A stretch of DNA of 64,000 bases from Candidatus Eremiobacteraceae bacterium (GTDB lineage Bacteria > Vulcanimicrobiota > Vulcanimicrobiia > Eremiobacterales > Eremiobacteraceae): NCBI GenBank assembly GCA_035314825.1, contig DATFYX010000059.1, positions 1 to 64,000 on the forward strand, given 5' to 3'. Made by a program: the position numbers and the translations under genes. This document shows, piece by piece, positions 10,268 to 53,696 of this stretch (positions are counted from its first letter, which is position 1; the number at the start of each line of letters is the position of its first letter). The notes below the pieces were generated by a model, which did no database searches, was not told the DNA's origin, and saw only the letters and a program-made list of their open reading frames with translations.

Positions 10268-11008
10268 ATGTTACAAGGACGCGTCGCAGTCGTCACCGGC
10301 GGCACTCGTGGCATCGGCGCCGCGATCGCCGAGATGCTCGCCATGGATGGCGCTCACGTCGCCGCAGGCTACAGCAAGGGCGAAGACACGGCGCGATCGT
10401 TCAAAGGCAGACTTGAAGCCAAGGGACATTCGGTCTCCGTGCATCAGGGCCGCGTCGACGAGCCGGATCATTGCCAGCGCGTCGTGCAAGAAGTGCTCGC
10501 ACAGTTCGGGCGCGTCGACTTTCTGATCAACAATGCCGGCATCACCATCGACAAGACCGTGCGCAGGATGACCGAAGAGGAGTGGCGCCAGGTGATCGCC
10601 GTGAATCTCTTCGGCGCGTTTCACATGACCAAAGCGGTGCTCGAGCACATGATCGAACGGGGCAGCGGTCGCATCGTCAACATCAGTTCGGTGATCGGCG
10701 AGACCGGCAACATCGGCCAGGCGAACTACGCTGCCTCCAAAGCCGGACTGTTCGGTTTCAGCAAGAGCCTTGCGCTCGAGATGGCGCAGCGTGGCATCAC
10801 GGTGAATTGCGTCGCTCCGGGATTCATCGCCACCGAGATGGTGTCCGCGATTCCGAAGGCCGCGCTCGACAAGGTCATCGAACGCATACCGCAGCGCCGC
10901 CTCGGCACGCCGCAAGAAGTCGCGCGCGTCGTGCGCTTCTTGATCGATGACGATTCGTCGTACATCACAGGTGCGGTCTACGACGTCAACGGCGGCCTCG
11001 ACATGTAG
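10268..11008 (+). CDS. SDR reductase, FabG/PhaB-like (copy 1)
   Basis: 246 aa short-chain dehydrogenase. It has the TGGTRGIG nucleotide-binding loop near residue 11, NNAGI near residue 90, catalytic Ser in NISSVIGETGN, YAASK with the Tyr/Lys pair, and the C-terminal ITGAVYDVNGGLDM typical of acetoacetyl-CoA/3-oxoacyl-ACP reductases. NADPH reduction of acetoacetyl-CoA to (R)-3-hydroxybutyryl-CoA for PHA synthesis is the likely role given the PHA synthase 1.6 kb downstream; fatty acid synthesis is the alternative. Its final Met and TAG stop are the ATGTAG of a family A palindromic repeat. Confidence 0.88.
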   Translation: MLQGRVAVVTGGTRGIGAAIAEMLAMDGAHVAAGYSKGEDTARSFKGRLEAKGHSVSVHQGRVDEPDHCQRVVQEVLAQFGRVDFLINNAGITIDKTVRRMTEEEWRQVIAVNLFGAFHMTKAVLEHMIERGSGRIVNISSVIGETGNIGQANYAASKAGLFGFSKSLALEMAQRGITVNCVAPGFIATEMVSAIPKAALDKVIERIPQRRLGTPQEVARVVRFLIDDDSSYITGAVYDVNGGLDM

Positions 11009-11056
11009 TCCCGCGCTCTTGAGCGCGGGCTCGGCCTCAAGAGGCCAGGACTACAT
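11003..11056. repeat. Family A palindromic repeat, inverted pair
   Basis: ATGTAGTC, hairpin CCGCGCTC/TT/GAGCGCGG, a short spacer, hairpin GGCCTC/AA/GAGGCC, then GACTACAT. The two outer octamers are exact reverse complements, so this is two family A units head to head. The left unit supplies the stop of fabG copy 1 and the right unit the stop of the convergent Rieske gene. It could act as a bidirectional terminator, although no T-run follows. Confidence 0.85.
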
Positions 11057-11686
11057 TTCCCGCATCGCGACGATCAGCCGCGCAGGCGAATTGACCTTGT
11101 ATCTGATCCATTCGACTTCGGCGACGCCGCTTCGCTCCCGGAGGGGCAGCGGGTCGAGTCCGCGCGGCGATGGTCCCACGAATGTGCCATCGCTCCGCTG
11201 CATATGGGTGCCGAGTTTGGTGAACTCCGTGCCGTGGCACGGACACCAGAAGTGCCCGAGCGCGTCGATCCACGTGTAGCGGCAACCGAAATGAGGGCAG
11301 ATCGGGCTCAGGATCAAGAATCCTAATGTTCCGACCTCGAACGGGACGCCGCCCTCTTGTGATGGATTGAAAAGCTCTGGGCGTTCTTGCCGCAGCTGGA
11401 GCTGGTCCGTCTTGCTCAAATGGACGGCCCACACGAAATCGGTTTTCTCTTCGACGAGGTCGCGCTCAGTGACGTCTTTGTCGACGAAATAGACCTTGAT
11501 CGGTCTGTCAGCGGTCGCCTGAAGCGCTGCGAAGTCATCTTTGCGCAAGCGCCACCACGTGTCGTCTGCGGTAGATCCCGCGCGCGCGTCACCAAGAGGA
11601 ATGGCCAGGCCGAGCGTCGTCATCGCGCCGATCGCGATGGTCGTCTGCGCGATGAAGCGGCGCCGTTGGATGCCTCTCGCAAACAT
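11051..11686 (-). CDS. Rieske [2Fe-2S] protein with Tat-type signal
   Basis: 211 aa from the ATG at 11686; an upstream in-frame start at 11767 falls inside repeats and is less likely. The N-terminus IQRRRFIAQ followed by a hydrophobic stretch and ARA resembles a Tat signal/anchor. The cluster-binding motifs are CPHFGC (Cys, His) and CPCHGTEF (Cys, His), with a preceding FLILSPI strand, as in QcrA/PetC-type quinol-cytochrome c reductase Rieske subunits. No cytochrome b gene is adjacent, so it is either an isolated complex III subunit or an arsenite oxidase-type small subunit. It sits convergently between two fabG paralogs, and its terminal Met-stop lies within a repeat. Confidence 0.82.
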   Translation of the reverse strand: MFARGIQRRRFIAQTTIAIGAMTTLGLAIPLGDARAGSTADDTWWRLRKDDFAALQATADRPIKVYFVDKDVTERDLVEEKTDFVWAVHLSKTDQLQLRQERPELFNPSQEGGVPFEVGTLGFLILSPICPHFGCRYTWIDALGHFWCPCHGTEFTKLGTHMQRSDGTFVGPSPRGLDPLPLRERSGVAEVEWIRYKVNSPARLIVAMREM

Positions 11687-11733
11687 GGTGACCCCGTTCG
11701 TGGGCACGCGATGTCGACCTGGGTGATCTCGAC

Positions 11734-11760
11734 ATGTAGTCCCGCGCTCTTGAGCGCGGG
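11734..11760. repeat. Family A palindromic repeat
   Basis: Head ATGTAGTC followed by hairpin CCCGCGCTC/TT/GAGCGCGGG, nearly identical to the left unit at 11003. It lies between the Rieske gene and the second fabG. Confidence 0.8.
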
Positions 11761-11767
11761 CGTTCAC

Positions 11768-11810
11768 ATGTAGTAGCGCGTTCTCTTGAACGCGATCCCT
11801 TCGAAGGGGA
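11768..11810. repeat. Family A repeat variant plus adjacent palindrome
   Basis: ATGTAGT, then a 7-bp stem CGCGTTC/GAACGCG around TCTT, then the perfect 12-base palindrome CCCTTCGAAGGG. Relative to other copies both stem arms changed together (CGCTC/GAGCG to CGTTC/GAACG), so pairing is preserved. Confidence 0.65.
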
Positions 11811-11820
11811 ATACAGCGCT

Positions 11821-11838
11821 CGCTAGGTGAACCTAGCG
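11821..11838. repeat. Short perfect hairpin before fabG copy 2
   Basis: CGCTAGGT and ACCTAGCG pair across a two-base loop, ending 3 bases before the ATG of the second fabG. It could occlude initiation or be another insertion-type palindrome; I see no second copy in the window. Confidence 0.5.
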
Positions 11839-11841
11839 GCC

Positions 11842-12597
11842 ATGAGTACTACGACGCTCGAGAACAGGGTTGGAATCGTCACGGGCGGGGCACGCGGGAT
11901 CGGCGCCGCGATCACCCAGCTGCTGGCTGCGGACGGCGCCACGGTGATCGTCATGGGCCTGGCATCGGATCGCGAGCGCACTGAATCGCTGCGCGCATCG
12001 CTCAACGGCGCGGCTCACCGGGTCGCGTTTCGCGAGGGAAACGTCGCCCACTACGACATTTGCAAGGGCGTGGTCGACGAGGTGCGGGCGCATTACGGGC
12101 ACATCGATTTCCTCGTCAACAACGCCGGCATCACGGCGGACCACACGGTGCGCAAGATGACGGTAGAAGAATGGCAAGCGGTCCTGGCGGTGAACCTGTC
12201 GGGGCCGTTTTTCATGATCAAGGCGGTGCTCGACCACATGCTCGAACGCGACTACGGACGGATCGTGAACATCTCATCCGTCGTCGGGCACACCGGCAAC
12301 TTCGGCCAAGCCAACTACGCATCGGCCAAGGCCGGCGTGATGGGCCTTACCAAGACCGTGGCACTCGAAGTCGCGGCGCGCGGCATCACGGTGAACGCAG
12401 TGGCGCCGGGTTTCATCAATACCGACATGGTGGCCGCGATGCCCAAAGCGGCGATCGACGCCGCCATCCAGAAATCTCCTGAGAGGCGCTTGGGCCAGCC
12501 GGACGAGGTCGCGCGCGTCGTGCGCTTCCTCCTTGACGAGAGCTCCGGCTACATCACCGGCGCCGTGTATGACGTCAACGGCGGACTGTACATGTGA
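11842..12597 (+). CDS. SDR reductase, FabG/PhaB-like (copy 2), PHA operon
   Basis: 251 aa from ATG 11842; a GTG at 11827 would start inside a hairpin. It has TGGARGIG, NNAGI, NISSVVGHTGN, YASAK and ITGAVYDVNGGLYM, closely resembling copy 1. The last bases overlap the GTG of the PHA synthase gene by 4 nt, so this copy is the better candidate for the dedicated acetoacetyl-CoA reductase of PHA synthesis. No SD motif is evident, and the hairpin just upstream may limit translation. Two similar reductases within 1 kb suggest duplication with the Rieske gene inserted or trapped between. Confidence 0.88.
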   Translation: MSTTTLENRVGIVTGGARGIGAAITQLLAADGATVIVMGLASDRERTESLRASLNGAAHRVAFREGNVAHYDICKGVVDEVRAHYGHIDFLVNNAGITADHTVRKMTVEEWQAVLAVNLSGPFFMIKAVLDHMLERDYGRIVNISSVVGHTGNFGQANYASAKAGVMGLTKTVALEVAARGITVNAVAPGFINTDMVAAMPKAAIDAAIQKSPERRLGQPDEVARVVRFLLDESSGYITGAVYDVNGGLYM

Positions 12598-15209: not shown

Positions 15210-15220
15210 AAAATAAGTGT

Positions 15221-15244
15221 AGCGGTCGAATTTATTCGACCGTT
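15221..15244. repeat. Family B palindromic repeat
   Basis: AGCGGTCGAA, TTTA, TTCGACCGTT: arms CGGTCGAA and TTCGACCG. It sits between the phasin stop and the intrinsic terminator. Confidence 0.8.
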
Positions 15245-23371: not shown

Positions 23372-23677
23372 CTACGCGCCGTCGTCCTCGTCGACATCGT
23401 CGTCGACCAGGCCCGAGTCGAACTCGAGCAGATCGAGCGCCTGGTCGGCTTCGGCCACGGGCACGCACAGCAGCGCCTCGCCGCCGTACAGATCGGCGCC
23501 GCCGCCGAACGCGCCGCCCAACGCCATGCCGAGATCGCCCATCTGCGGCAGCGCCACCGGATGCAATCCGTTGCTCTTGAGGAACTCGATGGCGAGCGCA
23601 TCGGCCATATCGGTCTGTGCGAACACCGCGACATAGTCGCCTTCGACGCGCTGCGGAGGGTCGATCAGATATCCCAC
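23372..23677 (-). CDS. DUF2007-like putative signal-transducing protein
   Basis: 101 aa with the DUF2007 pattern: an N-terminal VAVFAQTDMADALAIEFLKSNGL, a Gly-rich middle (GMALGGAFGGGADLYGG), and the strand LLCVPVAEADQALDLL, ending in an acidic tail. Members are small ferredoxin-like proteins of unknown function. Its ATG lies next to the stop of the NUDIX gene and it is cotranscribed with the nuclease. Confidence 0.65.
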   Translation of the reverse strand: MGYLIDPPQRVEGDYVAVFAQTDMADALAIEFLKSNGLHPVALPQMGDLGMALGGAFGGGADLYGGEALLCVPVAEADQALDLLEFDSGLVDDDVDEDDGA

Positions 23678-24169
23678 TTATGTGGTCCCAGGCTCTTGAG
23701 CCCGGGCCCGGAAGAACGGCTCGACGGCATCCTCGGCGCGGAACGAGAAATACCGGCCGTTCAACCGTCCTGTCAGCGCCGCCTCGACCGGGATCCGCAG
23801 CACGTCGGCGCGCAGCAGGGCCGGCGCCTCCTCGAAGGGCACAAAGCGCACCTCGACGACGTTGGGATCCTGCGAGCGAGGCTGCGCCCGCTCATCGATT
23901 TCTTCGACGTGAAAGGTGGCGTTCATGACGTGCAGGCCGCGAGCGGCGTCGATGGACTCGCTCGCGTAGGCGAGCTCACCCACGCGCACGCGCAGCGCCG
24001 CCTCTTCCCAGAACTCGCGCGCGACGGTCTGTGGCTTCGTCTCGCCTTCCTCTTGTCGTCCGCCGGGCAGCGTCCACAGCGGCTCGGGCTCGCCCGCATA
24101 GACGCACCGCGTGAGCAGCAACGCATCGCCTCGGGTGAGCAGGCCGCTGCACAGCTGGACGATCGTCAC
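23678..24169 (-). CDS. NUDIX hydrolase
   Basis: 163 aa from GTG 24169. The NUDIX box is complete: GGRQEEGETKPQTVAREFWEEAALRV, i.e. G-x5-E-x7-R-E-x2-E-E-x-A. It hydrolyses a nucleoside diphosphate linked to another moiety; substrate unknown. The last ~10 residues (RARAQEPGTT) and the TAA stop are encoded by a family A repeat, so the natural C-terminus has been replaced or extended. Confidence 0.83.
   Translation of the reverse strand: MTIVQLCSGLLTRGDALLLTRCVYAGEPEPLWTLPGGRQEEGETKPQTVAREFWEEAALRVRVGELAYASESIDAARGLHVMNATFHVEEIDERAQPRSQDPNVVEVRFVPFEEAPALLRADVLRIPVEAALTGRLNGRYFSFRAEDAVEPFFRARAQEPGTT
23680..23706. repeat. Family A palindromic repeat at the 3' end of the NUDIX gene
   Basis: Head ATGTGGTCCC followed by the hairpin GGCTC/TT/GAGCC(C), with G replacing A in the head as in the copies at 28364 and 53050. 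It is coding on the minus strand and supplies the stop of the NUDIX gene. Confidence 0.75.
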
Positions 24170-28672: not shown

Positions 28673-31600
28673 ATGCTGCCGTACGCCGAGCTCCATTGCC
28701 ATTCCAATTTCTCGCTGCTCGAAGGCGGCTCACATCCCGAGGAGCTGGTCGAGCGCGCCCGCGAGCTGGGCTTGGCCGGCATCGCAATCACCGACCGCAA
28801 CGGCGTCTACGGCGCCGTGCGCTTCGCCCAAGCCGCGCGCGAAGCGGGCATCCCGGCGATCATCGGCGCGGAGCTGACGCTCGAGGACGAGAGCCACCTC
28901 GTGCTGCTCGCGCAGAGCAAAGAGGGGTATGGCAATCTCTCGCGCCTGATCAGCCGGGCGCATCTCGACAACGAGCGCGGCCAGCCGCGCACGTCGTATC
29001 ACAACCTCGCACGCTACGCGGCCGGCATCATCGCGCTCTCCGGCTGCGAGCACGGCGCCATTCCGCGCGCCCTGGAGCACGGCGATTTTCGCGGGGCGTG
29101 CGAACAGGCCGGCGCACTGCGCGACATCTTCGGTTGGGGGAACTTGTGGATCGAGCTGCAGCGCCATCTGCTGCCTGACGACGGACCGCGCATCCGCTCG
29201 CTATGCGCGCTCGCCGGCGCGCTCGAGCTTGGGGTGGTCGCCACCGGCGGCGTCCACTACGCGGTGCCGGAACATCGCGCGCTGGCAGACGTCCTCACCT
29301 GCGTGCGCCTTAAGACGACGCTCGACGACGCGGGCACGCGCCTGCGCCCTAACGGCGAGTACTATCTGCGCCCGCCGGAGATGATGGCGCGCCTGTTCGC
29401 CGAGCACCCGCGCGCGGTGCACGCCAGCGCGGCGATCGCCCAGCGCTGCGAGTTCCGGCTCGACCGGTTGCGCAACGAGTTCCCCGATTTTCCGCTGCCG
29501 CCGGGCGAGACCGCGTTTTCCTATCTTTATTCTTTGGTGCATGAAGGCGTGCGCCGCCGCTATCGGCCCGTGACCCCCGAGGTGAGCAAGCAGATCGCGC
29601 ACGAGCTGGGCGTCATCGAGCGGATGGATCTGGCCGGCTACTTCCTCATCGTGTGGGACATCGTGCGCTTTGCGATGGAGCGCGGCATCTTCGTCCAGGG
29701 GCGCGGCTCGGCCGCCAACTCGGCGGTGTGCTACGCGCTTCACATCACCAACGTCGATCCAGTGGGCTTGAAGATGCTCTTCGAGCGCTTCTTGTCCGAA
29801 GAGCGCGCCGAGCTGCCCGACATCGATATCGACTGTCCGTCGGGCGACCAGCGCGAGCAGATCATCCAGTACGTCTATCAGCGCTACGGGCGCGAGCACA
29901 GCGGTATGGTGGCTGAAGTGATCAGCTACCGGGCGCGCTCGGCGGTGCGCGACATCGGCAAAGCGCTCGGCCTGTCGCTCGATCAAGTGGACGCCCTCGC
30001 CAAGTCGCTCGACAGCTATTCATCCGTGCGCGTCGGCGAAGAGGCGGCGCAGATCGCGCAAGCGACGGAGGGCGTACCCAAACACGAGGCGATGCAGGTG
30101 ACGCAGCACGGGGAACCGCTTGCGCTGTCGGCCGCGGACGTCGAGGGCGCGATCGCCGCGCTGCCCTCGGCGCTGGCGGTCGAGGGCGGCAGCGGCGTCG
30201 CCCAGCGGCTGTACGAGTTATGCGCGCGCATCGACAGCTTTCCGCGCCATCTGAGCCAGCACGTCGGCGGCATGGTGATCACGCGCTCGCCGCTCATCGA
30301 GGTGGCGCCGCTCGAAAAGGCCGCCATGCCGGACCGCACGATCGTGTGCTGGGATAAGGACGACTGCGCCACGCTCGGGCTCATCAAGATCGACATCCTC
30401 GGCCTGGGCATGCTCGACGCCATCGAGATCGCGCTCGAAGAGATCAAACGCGTGCGCGGCGAGACGGTCGATCTGGTGGACCTGCGCGCCTGCGACGATC
30501 CCGGCGTCTACGACATGCTGTGCGCCGCCGATACGGTGGGGCTGTTCCAGGTCGAATCGCGCGCGCAGATGGCCACCCTGCCGCGCCTCAAGCCGCGCAA
30601 CTTCTACGACATCGTGGTCGAAGTGGCGATCATCCGGCCGGGTCCGATCCAGGGCGACATGGTGCATCCGTACATCCGCCGGCGCAAAGGCCTCGAGCCG
30701 GTCACGTATCCCCATCCGTCGCTCGTGCCGGTGCTGGAGCGCACGCTCGGCGTGCCGCTGTTCCAAGAGCAGGGCATGCGCATGGCGGTCGAGACCGCCG
30801 GCTTCACGGCCGGGCAAGCCGACGAATTGCGCCGCGCCATGGGGCACAAGCGCTCGTATGAGAAGATGGAGCGCCTCAAAGGACGCTTGATCGAAGGCTG
30901 GGCCAAAAACGGCATCACCCACGACGTCGCCAAGCGCCTGTTCCAGATGCTCAGCGCGTTCGCCGATTTCGGCTTTCCCGAATCGCACGCGGCGTCGTTC
31001 GCGCTCATCGTCTACGTCTCGGGCTATCTCAAGCGCTACTACGCGCCGGAGTTCTTCGCGGCGCTGCTCAACGCGCAGCCGATGGGTTTCTATTCGCCCG
31101 AATCGCTGATCGCCGACGCGCGCCGCCACAACGTGGCGATCCTGCCGCCGGACGTGAACGCGTCGCACTACCCCTGCACCGTCGAACCCATCCGCTCGCG
31201 CGAACCGATGGAGCAGCCGGATGTATCCGACCGGCCGTCCGAATGGCGCCACCCGGTCGCCATGCGCATCGGGCTGAGCCAAGTGCGAGGCATCGGCGCC
31301 AAACACGAAGAGATGCTCGAGGCGCAGCGCGTCGCCGGCCCCTACCGGGATCTGCGCGATTTCGTGCTGCGCACCGGGCTGCCCAAGGACGTGCTCGAGT
31401 CGCTGGCCGCCGTCGACGCGTTCGCCTGTTTCGACCTGTCGCGCCGCCAGGCGTTATGGGAGGTGCAGCGCATGGCGGAGCTGCCGCGCGTGGGTGGACT
31501 CGAACGCGACATGACGATTGACGAGCCGGCGGTCGTGCTGCCGCACATGCATCAAGTGGAAGAAGCGGCCGCCGATCTATGGGGCCTCGGCCTATCCACC

Positions 31601-31969
31601 AAATATCACGCCATGCAGTTCTATCGGGAACAGCTCAAAGCAGCGCGCATCTATTGCGCCGCTGATCTCGAGCGGCTGCCCAACCGGCTCGTGGCCAAGG
31701 TCGCCGGCATCGTGACCACGCGCCAGCGGCCGGGCACCGCCAAAGGCTTCGTCTTCACGACGATGGAGGACGAGACCGGGCTCATGAACGTGATCATCCG
31801 GCCGGACATCTATCAGAAGTACCGCCCGATCGCACGCGACGAACCGGCGGTCATCGTGGAAGGCGTGCTGCAAAAAGACGACGGCCGCGTCAACATCCTC
31901 GCGCGGCGTTTCTGGAAGCTCGATCTCGAACGCCTCGCACGCGGCCTGACATCGCGCGACTTTCGCTAG
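28673..31969 (+). CDS. dnaE2: Error-prone DNA polymerase III alpha-type subunit
   Basis: 1098 aa, the length of DnaE2 rather than replicative DnaE. It has a PHP domain at the N-terminus (PYAELHCHSNFSLLEGGSHPEELVERA), palm motifs with GRGSAANSAVCYALHIT and the catalytic ELPDIDIDCPSGDQRE, finger/thumb regions (GLFQVESRAQM, RPGPIQGDMVHPYIRRR, FADFGFPESHAASFALIVY), a helix-hairpin-helix and a C-terminal OB domain (AKVAGIVTTRQRPGTAKGFVFTTMEDE). It carries out mutagenic lesion bypass during the SOS response with ImuA and ImuB. Confidence 0.95.
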   Translation: MLPYAELHCHSNFSLLEGGSHPEELVERARELGLAGIAITDRNGVYGAVRFAQAAREAGIPAIIGAELTLEDESHLVLLAQSKEGYGNLSRLISRAHLDNERGQPRTSYHNLARYAAGIIALSGCEHGAIPRALEHGDFRGACEQAGALRDIFGWGNLWIELQRHLLPDDGPRIRSLCALAGALELGVVATGGVHYAVPEHRALADVLTCVRLKTTLDDAGTRLRPNGEYYLRPPEMMARLFAEHPRAVHASAAIAQRCEFRLDRLRNEFPDFPLPPGETAFSYLYSLVHEGVRRRYRPVTPEVSKQIAHELGVIERMDLAGYFLIVWDIVRFAMERGIFVQGRGSAANSAVCYALHITNVDPVGLKMLFERFLSEERAELPDIDIDCPSGDQREQIIQYVYQRYGREHSGMVAEVISYRARSAVRDIGKALGLSLDQVDALAKSLDSYSSVRVGEEAAQIAQATEGVPKHEAMQVTQHGEPLALSAADVEGAIAALPSALAVEGGSGVAQRLYELCARIDSFPRHLSQHVGGMVITRSPLIEVAPLEKAAMPDRTIVCWDKDDCATLGLIKIDILGLGMLDAIEIALEEIKRVRGETVDLVDLRACDDPGVYDMLCAADTVGLFQVESRAQMATLPRLKPRNFYDIVVEVAIIRPGPIQGDMVHPYIRRRKGLEPVTYPHPSLVPVLERTLGVPLFQEQGMRMAVETAGFTAGQADELRRAMGHKRSYEKMERLKGRLIEGWAKNGITHDVAKRLFQMLSAFADFGFPESHAASFALIVYVSGYLKRYYAPEFFAALLNAQPMGFYSPESLIADARRHNVAILPPDVNASHYPCTVEPIRSREPMEQPDVSDRPSEWRHPVAMRIGLSQVRGIGAKHEEMLEAQRVAGPYRDLRDFVLRTGLPKDVLESLAAVDAFACFDLSRRQALWEVQRMAELPRVGGLERDMTIDEPAVVLPHMHQVEEAAADLWGLGLSTKYHAMQFYREQLKAARIYCAADLERLPNRLVAKVAGIVTTRQRPGTAKGFVFTTMEDETGLMNVIIRPDIYQKYRPIARDEPAVIVEGVLQKDDGRVNILARRFWKLDLERLARGLTSRDFR

Positions 31970-37594: not shown

Positions 37595-37598
<4 letters not shown>

Positions 37599-38761
37599 GC
37601 GAGGCGCGCCTGCGGCCTCGCCGCCCCGAGCGCGCGCGCCATCCATGGATCTTCGCGGGCGAGATCGCGCAGCTGCCGGATGCGCCCGACGGCGCGTGCG
37701 TGCGCGTGCTCGACCATCGCGGGCGCTTCTTCGCGGTGGCGTATCTCAACCGGCGCTCGAAGATCTCGTTGCGCGTGCTTTCGTGGCGCGACGAGGGGGT
37801 CGACGCGCAGTTCTGGCACCGGCGGCTGCAAGCGGCGGTAGGTCTGCGCGCGCCGGTGCCGGCCGACGGCGGCCGGCGCATCGTCAACGCCGAGGGCGAC
37901 GGCGTGCCGGGCTTGATCGTCGACTGGTACGCGGGTTTCGTGGTGATCCAGATCTCGACGCTGGGCATCGACACGGCGCGCGCCGACATCGTCGCCGCCC
38001 TCGAGGACCTGCTTGCGCCGCGCGGCATCTACGAACGCAGCGACGTGCCCGAGCGCTCGCTCGAAGGTCTCGCACCGCAGATCGGCGTGCTCGCGGGCGC
38101 GCCGCCGCCTGAGCTCGTGGAGATCGTCGAGGAACCGGCGCGCCTGCTCGTCGACGTCGCGCACGGGCAGAAGACCGGCCTGTTCCTCGACCAGCGGCTC
38201 AACCGGGCGGCCGCGGCGCGTTACGCTGCCGGCAGGCGCGTGTTGAATTGTTTCGCATACTCGGGCGGCTTCGGCGTGCACGCATGCCTCGCGGGCGCAA
38301 ACGAGGTCGTCAACGTCGACATCTCGCCGGAAGCGTGCGAGCTGGCACAGCGCAACTTCGAGCACAACGGGTGCACGAATGCGTCGTTCGTCGAGGCCAA
38401 CGCGTTCGATTGGCTGCGCCAGGCCAGCGACGGCGACGAGATCTTCGGCATGGTCATCTTGGACCCGCCTTCGTTCGCGCGCGGCAGGGGCGCGCTCGAA
38501 GGCGCGCTGCGCGGCTACAAAGAGATCAATCTGCGCGCGCTCAAGCTGCTGCGCCCGGGCGGCATCCTCGTCACGTGTTCGTGCTCGCGTCCGGTCACGC
38601 GCCGGCTTTTCGGCGAGGTCATCGCGGATGCGGCCGCCGACGCGCGGGTCGAGCTGCAGCTGCTCGAAGACCGGGCGTTGCCGCCGGATCACCCGATCCT
38701 GATGTCAGCGGCCGAAACGGCTTATCTGAAATGTCTGATCGTGCAGGTGGCGGTCGAATAA
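37595..38761 (+). CDS. Class I SAM-dependent rRNA large-subunit methyltransferase (RlmI-type)
   Basis: 388 aa from TTG 37595, overlapping the clpB stop. A PUA domain at the N-terminus ([38 protein letters not shown]) is followed by a methyltransferase fold: [20 protein letters not shown] for SAM binding, [36 protein letters not shown], and the Cys in [11 protein letters not shown] expected for m5C chemistry. The target is probably 23S rRNA cytosine, as for RlmI. Its stop codon lies inside a family B repeat. Confidence 0.87.
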
Positions 38762-38773
38762 ATTCGACCGCTC
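38750..38773. repeat. Family B palindromic repeat at the end of the rlmI-type gene
   Basis: CGGTCGAA, TAAA, TTCGACCG, then CTC. The TAA in the centre is the stop codon of the methyltransferase gene, so the repeat defines its C-terminus. Confidence 0.8.
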
Positions 38774-38779
38774 CAGAGA

Positions 38780-40642: not shown

Positions 40643-40646
<4 letters not shown>

Positions 40647-43600
40647 TGAGCTTCCTTATAGACCGGTTGCGACAGCGCTTCGCGCACGATGCGCTCTTGC
40701 TCGACCGCGTGCGCTCCAGGATAACCCTCGCTCGGGCTGGCCCGGTCCGGCCGTCCGACATAGCCGAAGGCGATGTTCTGCGGCGTGAGCCGTTCGCGCA
40801 GCCGGCGCGAGACGAACGCGCGCGCGCCCATGTTCTTTGGCTCCTCTTGGACCCACGCGACGGTGGTCAGCGACGGATACGACTTGACCAGCGCGAGCAC
40901 GTCGTCGAGCGGGAACGGCTCGAGCAGTTCGACGCGCGCGAGCGCGAGGTCGGTGGCCGCCTGGCGCAGCGGATCGAGGCTCAAGTCGTAATAGATCTTG
41001 CCGCTGCACAGGATGAGGCGTTGGATCTTGGAGCGGTCGCGCACGTTGGGATCGTCGATGACGGCCCGGAAGCCGCGATCGGTGAAATCGGTCAGCGTCG
41101 AGCTGGCGGCCTTGAGACGCAGCAGACTCTTGGGCGTCATGACGACGAGCGGGCGCGCTTTGGCATTGAGCGCCTGATCGCGCAAGAGGTGGAAGTACTG
41201 CGCCGGCGTCGTCGGATCGGCGATGCGCAAGTTGTTGTCGCCTGCCAGTTGCAAGAATCGTTCCAAGCGCGCGCTCGAGTGCTCGGGTCCCGCGCCTTCG
41301 TAGCCGTGGGGCAGCAGAAGGGTGAGCCGCGGCGATTCGCCCCACTTGGCCTGCCCTGCCGAGATGAACTGGTCCATGATGATCTGCGCGCCATTGAAGA
41401 AATCGCCGAACTGGGCCTCCCACAGCACCAGCGCATCGGGTGCCGCGGCGCTATAGCCGTATTCGAAACCGACGCACGCGTACTCGGACAGCGGGCTGTT
41501 GTGCACCTCGAACGACGCGCGCGCTCCGCCAAGGTGCTGCAACGGGGCATAGCTCTCGCCGGTCTTGGGGTCGTGCAGCACGATGTGGCGGTGGCTGAAC
41601 GTGCCGCGCTCGGTGTCTTGGCCGGTGAGGCGCACCGGTGTGCCGCTTTGCAGCAAGGAGCCGAACGCGAACGCCTCGCCCAGCGCCCAGTCGATGTCCC
41701 CGCCGGGCGCGAGCGCGCTGCGCCGCCGTTCGAGCTGTCGCGCCAATTTTGGATGGACCGTGAATCCGTCGGGCACCGCCAGCAGCTGGTCGTTGAGCTT
41801 GCGCAGCGCCTCGGCTGGCACGCGGGTGTCCATCGGTGCAGCATCGGATGCGCCGTTCTTGCCCGGCTCGACGGCCGGTTGGCGCTGCTGCGCGCCCTTG
41901 ACGGCCGCATGCGCGCCCTCGATGCGCCGCTGCGCATCCTCGACCAGTCTTGTGGCGTCGTCCTCGGAGATGATCCCGCGCTCGATCAGCCTGCGCGCGA
42001 AGATCTCGCGCACCGTCGGATGGTTCTTGATGCGTTCGTACATGATCGGCTGCGTGTACGCCGGTTCATCGGTCTCGTTGTGCCCGAAGCGGCGATAGCC
42101 GACCAAGTCGATCAGGATGTCGCGCTTGAACTGTTTGCGGAAGGAGACGCACAGACGCACCGCGGCGATGCAGGCCTCGACGTCGTCTGCGTTGACGTGG
42201 ATGATGGGGATGTCGAAGCCTTTGGCGAGATCGCTCGCGTAGCGCGTCGAGCGGCCTTCGCCCGGCGTCGTCGTGAATCCGATCTGGTTGTTCGCGATGA
42301 TGTGGATCGTGCCGCCGGTCGTATAGCCGGGCAGCGACTGCATGTTGAGCACCTCGGCGACGACGCCTTGCGCAGGAAATGCCGCATCGCCGTGGATGAG
42401 CAGCGCGGCGGCCTTTTGCGCGTCGACGACCGCGATGTTGTGCGTGCGATCGGTCTGCGCGGCGCGCGTGCGCCCCTCGACGACCGGATCGACGGCCTCG
42501 AGGTGGCTCGGGTTCGATGCCAGGACGACGCGCACGTTCTTGCCTGCCGGGGACTGGCGCACGCCCTGCGCTCCCTGGTGATACTTGACGTCGCCGGTCA
42601 CGTCGCCCGGCAGATCGCTGTCGCCGCGCTTCTCCGCGACCTCGAACTCGCGCAGCGCCTCCTCGAACGGCTTGCCGACGACGTGCGTGATCACCGCCAG
42701 CCGCCCGCGGTGCGCCATGCCGAGGTCGACTTCGCTGACGCCGTCCGCAGCCAGTTCGTCGGCAGCCTCTTCCAACATCGGGATCATCACGTCGAGGCCC
42801 TCGATGGAGAACGTCTTTTGGCCGAGGAACGACTTGCGCAGATAGCGCTCGAAGGTCTCGACGCTGCTGAGCGCGCCGAGCAGGCGCAGCGCCAGCTCGC
42901 GCGTGAGCGGTTGCCGGTGCGCACCGGATTCGATCTGCTCGCGCAGCCAGCCGCGCTCCTCGTGGCGCGAGATATGCTCCATCTGATAGGCGATGGTGCC
43001 GCAATAGGTCTCGCGCAGGCGCGGCAGCAGCTCGGCGAGATTGTTCCCCGGCAGGTGGATGCGCAGCACCGAGGCGGGGACCGACTCCATCAGCGGCAGC
43101 GTGAGGCCCAGACTCGCGGGGTCGAGCGCCGGATCGCCCTCGGGCGGCTCGCCCAACGGATCGAGCATGGCGGCGGTGTGGCCGAACGTGCGGTAGCGTG
43201 CGACTAACGACGCGCCCGCGGTCGCGGCGCGCAGCAGGTCTAACGGCGCTGCGGGCGCGGCCTGCACGCCGGGGGCGCGCGTCTCGATCTTGGAAACCGT
43301 GGCGGGCCTGGGAAGCCCCAAGCTCGTGAAGAGCGCGTCGTAGAATCCATCCGCGCCATTGAGCAGTTCTTCGATGCGTCGCAGGAACTCGCCGGATTGC
43401 GCGCCTTGGATGATGCGATGATCGTACGTGCTGGTGAGCGTCATGACTTTGGCGACGCCCATCGCGCGCAGCGAAGACTCGGGCACGGATGCAAGACCCG
43501 GCGGATAACCGATCGCGCCCGTGGCGATGATCGCGCCCTGGCCAGCCGTGAGGCGTGGAACCGATGCGATTGTGCCGATGCCGCCCGGGTTGGTGAGCGT

Positions 43601-44617
43601 GATGCTCGTGCCCGCCAGATCGCCGGGCATGAGCTGGCCGGAGCGCGCCTTTGCGACGAGCGCTTCGTACGTCTTGTGGAACGCCGCGAAATCAAGTTTG
43701 TCGGCATCGCGGATGACGGGCACGACCAAGAAGCGGCTGCCGTCTTTACGCGTCATATCGACGGCCAGGCCGAGGTTGCACGCTTGGTCGACGCGCGCCG
43801 GCTGGTCGCCCTCACGCCGGAACGCAGCGGTCATCACCGGCACCTGATGGGTCGCGAGCGCGATCGCGAAACCGATGACGTGCGTGAACGAGACTTTTTC
43901 GTCGCGGCCCGCGGTGCGCAGCGCAGCGTTGAGATCGCGCCGGCGCACCTCGAGCGTATCGACCGCGATGGTGCGGAAGCTCGTCGCCGTCGGGATGCGC
44001 AGGCTCTCTTCCATATAGCCCACGAGCGCCGCGGCCGGTCCTTTGAGCGGCACGATGTTTGGAGCGGTCGAATTCACTGGACTCTCGGGAGGGGATGGAG
44101 CGTTCGAATTCATTCGACCGTCCGCCACGTCGCCCGCTGCGGATGGAGCGGTCGAATTCATTCGACCGTCCACGGCTTGACCGTCCACGTCCGCGCGCCG
44201 CACGATGCCGCCTGGTCCGCTGCCCGCAAGCGCGTGGAGCTCTATGCCGCGCAGCGCTGCCGCGCGCTTCGCGAGCGGCGATGCGGCGACGCCGGCAGAT
44301 GATTGCGCGCGCGGTAGCGTAGGAGTCGCGACGGCGGTACGGACCTGTTCGACGGCCGGAGCGCTCTTGCCGGAAGAATCGATCTCAGCGAGCGGACCGC
44401 CGACTTTGACGGTCGCCCCTTCGTCGGCGACGATCTTGACGATCACGCCGGCGGCAGGCGCCGGCACTTCGACGTCGACTTTGTCGGTCGTGACGTCCAC
44501 GAGAGGTTCGCCGCTCTTCACGCTATCGCCGACGTGCTTGCGCCAGCTGGTGACGGTGCCTTCAGCTACCGATTCGCCCAGCTCCGGCAGGGTCACGATC
44601 ACGCGATTATCAGGCAC
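40643..44617 (-). CDS. kgd: Fused 2-oxoglutarate dehydrogenase E2-E1 (Kgd-type), with lipoyl domain
   Basis: 1324 aa from GTG 44617. Domains in order: lipoyl (1-80, lipoylation site TTDKVDVE, Lys46), peripheral subunit-binding (about 112-146, SPLAKRAAALRGIELHALAGSGPGGIVRRADV), E2 acyltransferase (about 190-420, ending in the HRIIQG motif), then thiamine-dependent E1 (about 470-1324, with EVDLGMAHRGRLAVI, RRFGHNETDEPAYTQP and RLILCSGKIYYDL). Mycobacterial Kgd lacks the lipoyl domain; here the full set is present, so the enzyme may carry out complete oxidative decarboxylation with Lpd. Residues about 149-187, between PSBD and E2, contain three in-frame family B repeat copies. Confidence 0.92.
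44062..44078. repeat. Family B half-repeat inside kgd
   Basis: GAGCGGTCGAATTCACT keeps one arm and centre only; the other arm has diverged (CTGGACTC). It is read on the minus strand as VNSTAP. Confidence 0.6.
44098..44122. repeat. Family B palindromic repeat inside kgd (copy 2)
   Basis: GAGCGTTCGAATT, CATTCGACCGTC; one arm base changed. Read on the minus strand as DGRMNSNAPS. It begins 48 bases (16 codons) before the next copy, so the tandem is frame-preserving. Confidence 0.75.
44146..44171. repeat. Family B palindromic repeat inside kgd (copy 3)
   Basis: GAGCGGTCGAATTCA followed by TTCGACCGTC, arms perfect. Read on the minus strand as DGRMNSTAPS in the flexible linker after the PSBD. Confidence 0.8.
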
Positions 44618-50422: not shown

Positions 50423-51265
50423 CTATGGAGCGGTCAAGTTTACTCGACCGTTTAGAGCGGTCGATTTTATTCGACCGCTTACGACGCGTCCTTCTTTATG
50501 CAGGTCAGAATCCGCTTCGAGATGCTCCACAAAGCCGATCGGCGCCCCCCCTTTGGCTTTCACGAGGGTGTTGTCGATGGCATAACTTTCCTGGACGATG
50601 AGGCCGCTGGCGCGATCGAACCAGGCCGAGCCGTGCAGCGCGATCGCTCCTGGCAGAAGACCCGGCAGGTTGTACTCCTTGCCTGTGATCCGGCCGCGGC
50701 CGGTCACGTCGATGCGCACCCGATCGCCGTCGGCCGTCGCCACCACATGCTCGAAGACGGCGTTGCCCGAACCGAGGGAGGTCAGCACATGTTGCTGCGT
50801 CATCCATCTGCTGCCGACAACGACCGGCTCAGCCGGCAGATCGATCATCGGCGCGTCTTCGAGCGCGTAGAGCTTCGCGCCGACCTGCACGTTGCGCGGC
50901 GTGACGAGCGCGGTACCGCTGTCATGGCTGACGGCTATTTTGTTGCGCGGCACGTCATGGACAGTGGTGGTGACGTCGCCACGGACGCGCGCAGCCGTCG
51001 CGTTCGCTGATAGAACCGTGCCGTTCGCAAGGATCGTCGTGCGCACTTCTTCGTCGATGACCATGCCTTGCGAGCGGAACGCTTCCAAGCGCGCTGCCGG
51101 CAGTTTCCAGTCGATGCGGTCGACCAGATCGGAATGCTGGACGAGGCGTTCGCCTGCGGACAGGCTCAGCCGCAATACATACGAGCCGGGCTGCTGCGCG
51201 GCGGCGCTACCCGTGATGGCCAGGCCCGCGGCACATGCGAGCGCGAGGACTCGTCGTACGTTCAT
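50423..51265 (-). CDS. Secreted hypothetical protein with repeat-encoded C-terminus
   Basis: 280 aa. Signal peptide [24 protein letters not shown] precedes a beta-rich mature domain ([70 protein letters not shown]). The last ~18 residues ([18 protein letters not shown]) are the translation of two tandem family B repeats. It looks like a distant paralog of the protein at 45493-46305. Function unknown. Confidence 0.55.
50428..50452. repeat. Family B palindromic repeat (tandem copy 1)
   Basis: GAGCGGTCAAG, TTTA, CTCGACCGTTT; both arms have shifted slightly (CGGTCAAG / CTCGACCG). Read on the minus strand as NGRVNLTAP just before the stop. Confidence 0.7.
50455..50480. repeat. Family B palindromic repeat (tandem copy 2)
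   Basis: GAGCGGTCGATTTTATTCGA then CCGCTT. Read on the minus strand as SGRIKSTAL, 27 bases (9 codons) from the neighbouring copy. Confidence 0.75.
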
Positions 51266-52029: not shown

Positions 52030-53672
52030 TGAGTGCGCCGCTGACGCCGGACGGTTCGCGGCCCAGCGCGCGAAGCGTACGGGGCATGGTGACGGCTCCG
52101 CACGCGCTGGCCGCGCAGGCAGGCGTGTTGACGCTGAGCGCCGGCGGCTCGGCCGCCGATGCCGGTGTCGCGATCGCCGCCGCCTTGAGCGTGCTCTATC
52201 CGCACATGACCGGGATCGGCGGCGACGCGTTCTTCCTTTATTATGACGCAGGCACGCGCACCGTTCACGCCTATAACGGCTCCGGACGGTCGGCGGCGCT
52301 GGCCGATCGCGCCTACTATGAACGCCTCCGTATGCGCTCCATTCCGCGCCACGGCGGCCCGTCGGCGTTGACGGTGCCTGGCGCGGTCGACGCGTGGCTG
52401 GCGCTGCATGAGCGCTTCGGGCGCATGTCGCTCCAGGCGGTGCTCGCGCCCGCCGTCGAGCACGCGCGCGGTGGCGCGCCGATCGCGCGCAGTCTGGCGC
52501 GCGGACTGCACGAAGAACACGCACTGCTCGCCGCCGATGAAGGCGCGCGCACGTTGTACGCTGCGCGACCGAGCTATCCGATCGGCACGCGTTTGGCACA
52601 GCCGGCGCTCGCACGCAGTCTCGAGAGCATCGCATCGCACGGCCGATCGTTCTGGTATGAGGGCGAGGCGGCCGAGCATATCGAACGCGCATGCGTGCGC
52701 GCCGGCAGCCCGCTGCGGGCTGCGGACCTGTCGGAACATCGCGGTTTTTACGCCGATCCGTTGCGCGCGCGCTTCGGCGCCTATGAATCGCTGGTCACGC
52801 CGCCCAATTCGCAGGGCCTCGCTTTGCTGCTCGCTCAGGGCATTCACGACGCCGGCGCAGATCGCGGCGGGGATGCGTTGGGCAGCGCTGGTCTCGCCCA
52901 TCTCGACATCGAGGCGATCGTGCTCGCGTTCGCGGACCGCGACGCGTGGGTCGGCGACCCGGACGCGGTCAAACCCTCGTTTGAGCGCTTGCTGTCAGCC
53001 GACTACGCGAAGTCCCAAGCGGCAAAGATCGATTCATATCGGGCGTGCGATGTGGTCCCAAGAAAAGTGGTCCCGCGCTCTCGAGCGCGGGCCGCCGGCG
53101 GCGACACCACGTACTTCGCGTGCGTGGACGCCGACGGCAACGCGCTGTCCATGATCCAATCGCTCTATTTCCACTTCGGTTCGTGCGTGGGCGTGCCCGA
53201 GCTGGGCATCGTGCTGCAGAACCGCGGCCACGCGTTCACGCTCGATGAAGGCCGCCCGACCTCGCTGCACCCTGAGCAGTTGCCGTTTCACACGCTCATG
53301 GCCGCGATGTTGCTGGAAGACGGCGAGCCGCGCTTGGTGTACGGCACGATGGGCGGTGAGGGCCAGCCGCAGACGACGCTGCAGATCTCCGTCGCGATCG
53401 CGGAGCGCGGCGTCGACCCACAGACCGCCTTGGACATGCCGCGCTGGCGCTATGGCAAGACCTGGGGTGACGAAGTGCCCGGCGTCGCCATCGAGCGCCG
53501 CGCCGGCGAGGCGTGCATCGCGGGCCTGCGCGCGCGCGGCCACGACATGATCGTCACCGACGATTGGGAGGAATCGATGGGCCACGCCGGCGCGATCAGC
53601 ATCGAGCGCGCTGAGGGGATGCTCGTGGGCGCCTCGGACTTGCGCAGCGACGGCGCCGCCCTCGGCCTGTAG
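52029..53672 (+). CDS. ggt: Gamma-glutamyltransferase family hydrolase (autoprocessing)
   Basis: 547 aa. It has GMVTAPHALAAQAGVLTLSAGGSAADAGVAIAAAL at the start, a Gly-Asp-Ala-F motif (MTGIGGDAFFLYYD), and the small subunit beginning at Thr360 in GGDTTYFACVDADGNALSMIQSLY, with the oxyanion/Gly motif MGGEGQPQTTLQI. No signal peptide, so it may be cytoplasmic and a YwrD-like member. A family A repeat is inserted in frame immediately before Thr360, at the end of the large subunit. Its final TAG stop is also within a family A repeat. Confidence 0.86.
   Translation: MSAPLTPDGSRPSARSVRGMVTAPHALAAQAGVLTLSAGGSAADAGVAIAAALSVLYPHMTGIGGDAFFLYYDAGTRTVHAYNGSGRSAALADRAYYERLRMRSIPRHGGPSALTVPGAVDAWLALHERFGRMSLQAVLAPAVEHARGGAPIARSLARGLHEEHALLAADEGARTLYAARPSYPIGTRLAQPALARSLESIASHGRSFWYEGEAAEHIERACVRAGSPLRAADLSEHRGFYADPLRARFGAYESLVTPPNSQGLALLLAQGIHDAGADRGGDALGSAGLAHLDIEAIVLAFADRDAWVGDPDAVKPSFERLLSADYAKSQAAKIDSYRACDVVPRKVVPRSRARAAGGDTTYFACVDADGNALSMIQSLYFHFGSCVGVPELGIVLQNRGHAFTLDEGRPTSLHPEQLPFHTLMAAMLLEDGEPRLVYGTMGGEGQPQTTLQISVAIAERGVDPQTALDMPRWRYGKTWGDEVPGVAIERRAGEACIAGLRARGHDMIVTDDWEESMGHAGAISIERAEGMLVGASDLRSDGAALGL
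53050..53091. repeat. Family A palindromic repeat inside ggt, with duplicated head
   Basis: ATGTGGTCCC, then AAGAAAA, then GTGGTCC and a perfect 9-bp stem CCCGCGCTC/TC/GAGCGCGGG. Read in frame as VVPRKVVPRSRARAG-like residues ending five codons before the nucleophilic Thr codon. Confidence 0.75.
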
Positions 53673-53693
53673 TCCCGGCCTCTTGAGGCCGGG
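53667..53693. repeat. Family A palindromic repeat between ggt and TMEM175 genes
   Basis: CTGTAGTCC with a perfect 9-bp stem CCCGGCCTC/TT/GAGGCCGGG. The TAG of the head is the ggt stop. The stem differs from the CGCGCTC copies in both arms together, preserving pairing. Confidence 0.8.
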
Positions 53694-53696
53694 CCG

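Follow-up and report, generated by a model that had tools for sequence, protein, structure and literature searches.

The kgd fusion gene and its linker

The window, a stretch of 64,000 nt, comes from contig 59 of a Candidatus Eremiobacterota MAG (G000; 2.55 Mb, 97% complete, 89 contigs). On its minus strand lies an uninterrupted ORF for a Kgd-like fusion protein, whose linker between the E3-binding and E2 catalytic domains holds three copies of a short palindromic repeat, here called family B. The features of this region are as follows.

40643–44617, minus strand: kgd-like fusion gene, 1324 aa, assigned by Pfam and NCBIfam
44045–44188 (ends approximate), minus strand: linker between E3-binding and E2 catalytic domains, 48 residues, holding the REP array; placed by Pfam bounds, linker alignment and AlphaFold2
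44143–44168, plus strand: REP copy 3, head ATGGAG (44143–44148) and exact palindrome CGGTCGAATTCATTCGACCG (44149–44168)
44095–44120, plus strand: REP copy 2, head ATGGAG, a single mismatch in the palindrome (CGTTCG...); read as DGRMNSNAPS, residues 166–175
44059–44084, plus strand: REP copy 1, decayed, head TTGGAG, with the head-side half CGGTCGAATTCA preserved and the distal arm gone; read as PVNSTAPN, residues 180–187

Pfam places a lipoyl domain at residues 8–79, E3_binding at 110–144, 2-oxoacid_dh (the E2 catalytic domain) at 187–420, the E1 parts at 671–913 and 975–1167, and OxoGdeHyase_C at 1173–1315. The protein scores 1458 bits with NCBIfam NF008907 (cut-off 878), and its E2 catalytic and E1 parts share a single chain, as in the Kgd/OdhA type of multifunctional 2-oxoglutarate dehydrogenase. 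Actinobacterial OdhA/Kgd (PMC10415282; PDB 8p5r, 8p5t, 2xt6) has the same arrangement, and residues 169–1315 score 930–940 bits against these structures. Unlike them, the present Kgd carries its own N-terminal lipoyl and E3-binding domains. The fusion of lipoyl, E3-binding, E2 and E1 domains is found across the class (window 40643–44617 and loci L017–L045). It was matched in 41 of 41 genomes searched, mostly in one open frame; in several homologues there seems to be a further lipoyl-like match close to the N-terminus.

AlphaFold2 prediction of Kgd residues 1–433 gives pLDDT below 50 at residues 150–181, flanked by the folded E3-binding helix and E2 domain. Of the 48 linker residues, about 28 come from the REP array. 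Across the class, 30 Kgds, the present one included, have linkers of 20 to 73 residues: 48 here, 47 and 73 in the two same-genus genomes (G001 and G002, both without the element), and 20–39 (median 31) in the 27 others. The preliminary description regarded the linker as a permissive site, and this disorder and variability agree with it. Its proposal that the repeats add residues is borne out relative to other genera, but not within the genus.

Three repeat copies in one linker

The preliminary description reported two full copies and one half copy between the subunit-binding and E2 catalytic domains, and we confirm this. The three REP units lie head to tail, span 44059–44168 and fall inside the codons for residues 150–187. 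In register, the corresponding 31-mers occupy 44057–44087 (74%), 44093–44123 and 44141–44171, the last two being 97% identical to each other. Start-to-start spacings are 36 and 48 nt, both multiples of three as claimed; the 48 bases described as lying between the full copies are a start-to-start distance, and 17 nt separate the full 31-mers. All three copies have the head on the plus strand, antisense to kgd, and share one common reading frame.

Copy 3 is read on the minus strand within DGRMNSTAPS (residues 150–159), and its DNA hairpin is significant (−10.1 kcal/mol, z −4.1). The hairpin of copy 2 (−5.3 kcal/mol) is not significant, and that of copy 1 is lost. Copy 1 still matches the consensus at 21 of 26 positions (codon shuffles reach 17 at the 99th percentile), which upholds its description as a half copy with a decayed distal arm. 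A role as an RNA hairpin in kgd mRNA is not supported, the fold z-score being only −1.8.

We looked in the relatives for the same linker repeat in lineages lacking family B, the finding that would have undone the idea of insertion, and did not find it. The repeat peptide is absent from all other Kgds in the class alignment. At the DNA level, the linkers of five other genomes (G001, G002, G005, G006, G012) show no trace of the element that exceeds the 95th percentile of codon shuffles, and the best same-genus match to the REP consensus (15/26) equals that percentile. The G001 linker peptide TDGHIEAAAAP resembles the repeat peptide in protein, but its DNA-level likeness is no better than codon shuffles. 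Shared linker ancestry is ruled out by the lack of remnants in the G001 and G002 linkers. A precise kgd empty site cannot be drawn, since the same-genus linkers are unalignable.

Anatomy and distribution of family B

The family B unit is about 26 nt long and consists of an ATGGAG-type head followed by a 20-nt palindrome with 9-nt arms and a 2-nt centre. The consensus is directional: an ATG[G/T]AG head stands on one side, followed by CGGTCGAA-TTYA-TTCGACCG, and the other side is unconserved. With up to 3 mismatches, the palindrome occurs 198 times in the 2.55-Mb genome and the reversed control pattern not once, which rules out chance repeats. Among 117 genomes of the class, the exact form is found in G000 only and in none of the 116 others. 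An Rfam identity was dismissed, the match being sub-threshold only.

We read G000 directly over 835 kb (a 33% sample) and G001 over 1.1 Mb, and genes in the G000 sample were called with a simple home-made codon-usage model. The sample contains 90 palindrome sites at up to 4 mismatches, 48 of them perfect; 87 were kept after weak headless matches had been discarded. Their heads include 52 GGAG and 21 GTAG. Clustering within 120 nt involves 38 of the 87 copies (44%), with a head-to-tail order in 16 of 20 neighbouring pairs. The sample is 93% coding, yet 51 copies are intergenic and 9 lie at gene edges, leaving 27 inside predicted ORFs. Because intragenic copies are so few in such a gene-dense sample, most insertions into coding sequence appear to have been lost or purged.

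Outside kgd, the window holds the following family B copies.

15217–15242, plus strand: head GTGTAG, perfect palindrome, outside predicted genes
38751–38776, minus strand: head CTGGAG, at the 3' end of a methyltransferase ORF (37595–38761, plus strand)
50425–50477, plus strand: head-to-tail pair (50425–50450, 50452–50477), overlapping the 3' end of a predicted ORF
31208–31233, plus strand: possible decayed copy, head ATGGAG, 4 mismatches, in an error-prone DNA polymerase (DnaE2-type) ORF

The DnaE2-type ORF spans 28673–31969 (NCBIfam NF004225), and its same-genus orthologue has other residues and no copy at the position of 31208–31233.

A second hairpin family is also present, GTAG/GTGG-headed and of the form GTAG-TCCCG..CTCTTGAG..CGGGC. 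It counts about 10 copies in the 835 kb, five of which lie in the window (10997–11030, 11728–11761, 23674–23707, 53059–53092, 53661–53694), and it resembles the RAYT-flanking REP of G006 (GTAGTGCCGGGGCTTTAGCCCCGG). Separately, two neighbouring ORFs at 10268–12597 are about 71–76% identical in DNA over several stretches (10283–11006, 11869–12595), an apparent tandem gene duplication.

Relation to REP elements and their transposases

A head of four bases and a hairpin, present at high copy number, define REP elements of the GTAG class, which are associated with RAYTs (PMC2817692, PMC3733652). The preliminary description saw family B correctly as a dispersed repeat but did not recognise it as a REP element. 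Like GTAG-class REPs and RAYT REPtrons, family B has a head tetranucleotide on one side only and an adjacent short palindrome able to form a hairpin. It is likewise present in hundreds of copies, mostly intergenic and often clustered, is species-specific, and has RAYT-flanking relatives in sister genera. Its perfect stem and TTTA/TTCA loop recall the Marinomonas REPMb, a perfect palindrome with a TTTA loop which was studied biochemically and is cleaved by its RAYT (PMC8266576). Family B differs from GTAG-class REPs in that its head is mostly GGAG, most of its intragenic copies share one frame, and a cognate RAYT with inverted flanking copies was not found in the amplified genome.

Neither Pfam nor protein search detected a Y1_Tnp/RAYT in G000, G001 or G002. 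A transposase resident in G000 was therefore rejected as a candidate, and no present-day transposase can be shown. REPtrons can be missing by deletion in REP-bearing species (PMC3733652), and the assembly is fragmented, so the missing RAYT lowers the claim to a resident or active system but not the identity of the element.

Y1-type transposases do occur in sister genera of the same family. Two that we tested score above the curated threshold of NCBIfam NF047646 (REP-associated tyrosine transposase). The RAYT genes of sister genus g4 (G005 and G012) lie between inverted GTAG/GGAG-CGGTCGAG[C/A]TTYA[G/T]CTCGACCG repeats, which share head, CGGTCGA arm and TTYA loop with family B; both GGAG and GTAG heads stand beside these genes. 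Related palindromes number 606 in G005 and 379 in G012. Most other RAYT loci of the bacterial family have GTAG-headed hairpins of their own, many with a TTTA or TTCA tip, and each sister genus has a different palindrome beside its own RAYT. We also noticed that several sister-genus RAYT genes (L209 1319–2060, L214, L219, L227, L231) carry 2–6 head-to-tail REPs on each side, pointing inwards. We accordingly describe family B as a REP-like element with RAYT-linked relatives and do not claim an active REPtron system.

Most copies inside genes share one frame

The kgd linker is not the only protein site occupied, and the preliminary idea of a colonised permissive site, apt for kgd, is not unique to it. 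Family B also lies in or beside domains of at least five other proteins: alanine racemase, a FabH-like synthase, NuoC, a diacylglycerol-kinase-like protein and a UvrD-like helicase-nuclease. Further hosts are an AMIN/Amidase_3 protein and a family-5 solute-binding lipoprotein, the latter with its copy just past a lipobox-like LGGC. Some gap-rich nucleotide alignments of REP loci against orthologues proved unreliable, and only the clean sites C34:11341 and C1:152164/152189 (protein level) were used. Clean in-frame differences from the same-genus orthologue amount to 10 codons in the diacylglycerol-kinase-like protein and 11 in alanine racemase. At its REP, the FabH-like protein has about 43 residues against 10 in a PDB homologue.

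One site is of another kind. The perfect copy at C11:40809 of G000 (L141:809) encodes KDGRMNSTAPYVD (DGRMNSTAPYVD) in a DUF255/thioredoxin-domain protein, and the G001 orthologue has KDGRANAEAPYVD (DGRANAEAPYVD) at this site, at equal length. It is either an old shared insertion or a convergence.

Among the 27 intragenic copies, 16 share one frame, which runs antisense to the head and yields GR[I/M]NSTAP. Stops close one of the reading frames of family B and leave five open, so that chance would place about 1/5 of the copies in any one of them. The bias is significant for copies (p = 9e-6) and for independent loci by our own count (12 of 19, p = 5e-5). For three intragenic copies outside the favoured frame, translation is uncertain: each is no more than 12 nt from a predicted start.

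Intragenic GTAG REPs are known, including in UvrD-type and DnaE2 genes, and flexible linkers have been suggested as neutral sites for them (PMC3733652). Those of Opitutus terrae and other species are likewise in frame and often paired, and their hosts are housekeeping genes, among them genes for UvrD-type helicases and error-prone polymerases (PMC3733652); three head-to-tail copies and the linker of a 2-oxoglutarate dehydrogenase fusion set the present case apart from them. Rickettsia palindromic elements (RPE) are also palindromic repeats in frame within the ORFs of functional proteins. RPE-4 and RPE-6 are CGTC-headed, RPE-1 is longer, and CGTC repeats have no association with transposase genes (PMC3733652). 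With a GGAG/GTAG head and a unit of about 26 nt, family B was rejected as an RPE. In the literature searched, we found no description of an Eremiobacterota version of REP or of its strong one-frame preference, and Eremiobacterota are not among the phyla listed for GTAG REPs in PMC3733652. The element is of a known kind with known intragenic cases; it is new by its phylum and by the strength of its frame bias.

Origin of the kgd array

We propose, with a probability of roughly 85%, that family B is a GTAG/GGAG-headed REP of the RAYT-associated kind, copied in the past by a RAYT and purged from most genes, whose linker copies were tolerated and whose kgd array is neutral filler. A REP-associated tyrosine transposase (HUH, IS200/IS605-like), now lost or unassembled in G000, would have recognised the head and hairpin and copied the element as single-stranded DNA. 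Copies landing in genes would mostly have been purged. Those in linkers may have been tolerated, especially in the antisense frame G-R-[I/M]-N-S-T-A-P, which is small, polar and free of stops. The three copies in kgd would then have no function, in a swinging-arm linker that varies freely in length and sequence in the class. Counting against this proposal are the negative RAYT searches in G000, G001 and G002 and also the majority head, GGAG in place of the canonical GTAG, though GGAG also heads REPs beside the G005 and G012 RAYTs.

How the array grew is a separate matter. The preliminary description called it repeated colonisation, which is not established: growth of a local REP array is about as likely as three independent hits. 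We give close to even odds to a single insertion in kgd followed by local duplication, by slippage or as a RAYT-made array. The clustering and head-to-tail order of the sampled copies fit such growth, and in the two full kgd copies the likeness runs on for a few bases past the consensus at either end. On the other hand, the spacers of the 48-nt and 36-nt units are unrelated, and the copies, with 0, 1 and about 4 mismatches, have decayed to very different degrees, which points to different ages.

Other readings give the repeat a use. It is doubtful, though worth consideration, that family B evolved for read-through; its stop-free, polar, linker-like peptide in one frame and its colonisation of many housekeeping genes would then make it a genome-wide source of linkers, with kgd a threefold example. 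Domestication of the kgd array, as a linker of useful length or flexibility for the swinging lipoyl domain or for E2 core assembly, seems unlikely to us. Without the three copies the linker would have about 20 residues, at the low end of the range, and the long linkers of both same-genus genomes may mean that the genus favours length; but other genera function with 20–39 residues, the same-genus linker sequences are entirely different, and the decay of copy 1 looks neutral. The least credible reading makes the repeat a selected palindrome of the host, bound by a protein or organising the chromosome (HIP1-like or a regulator site), and not mobile DNA. The strongly conserved, symmetrical arms around a variable 2-nt centre would suit it, yet the head is asymmetric, the exact form is confined to one species while each sister genus keeps another palindrome beside its own RAYT, and unrelated proteins hold in-frame copies where an orthologue has clean empty sites.

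Our preferred reading, a REP element with tolerated linker copies, extends REP/RAYT elements to an uncultured phylum, in a genome where genes, including several housekeeping ones, hold a substantial share of the REP copies. Comparison with same-genus genomes that lack the copies makes it possible to tally, for each in-frame insertion, which frame it uses, whether it sits in a domain or a linker, and how far it has decayed. A long-standing question, whether palindromes within genes serve as useful protein material or as neutral filler, can thereby be put to a direct test.
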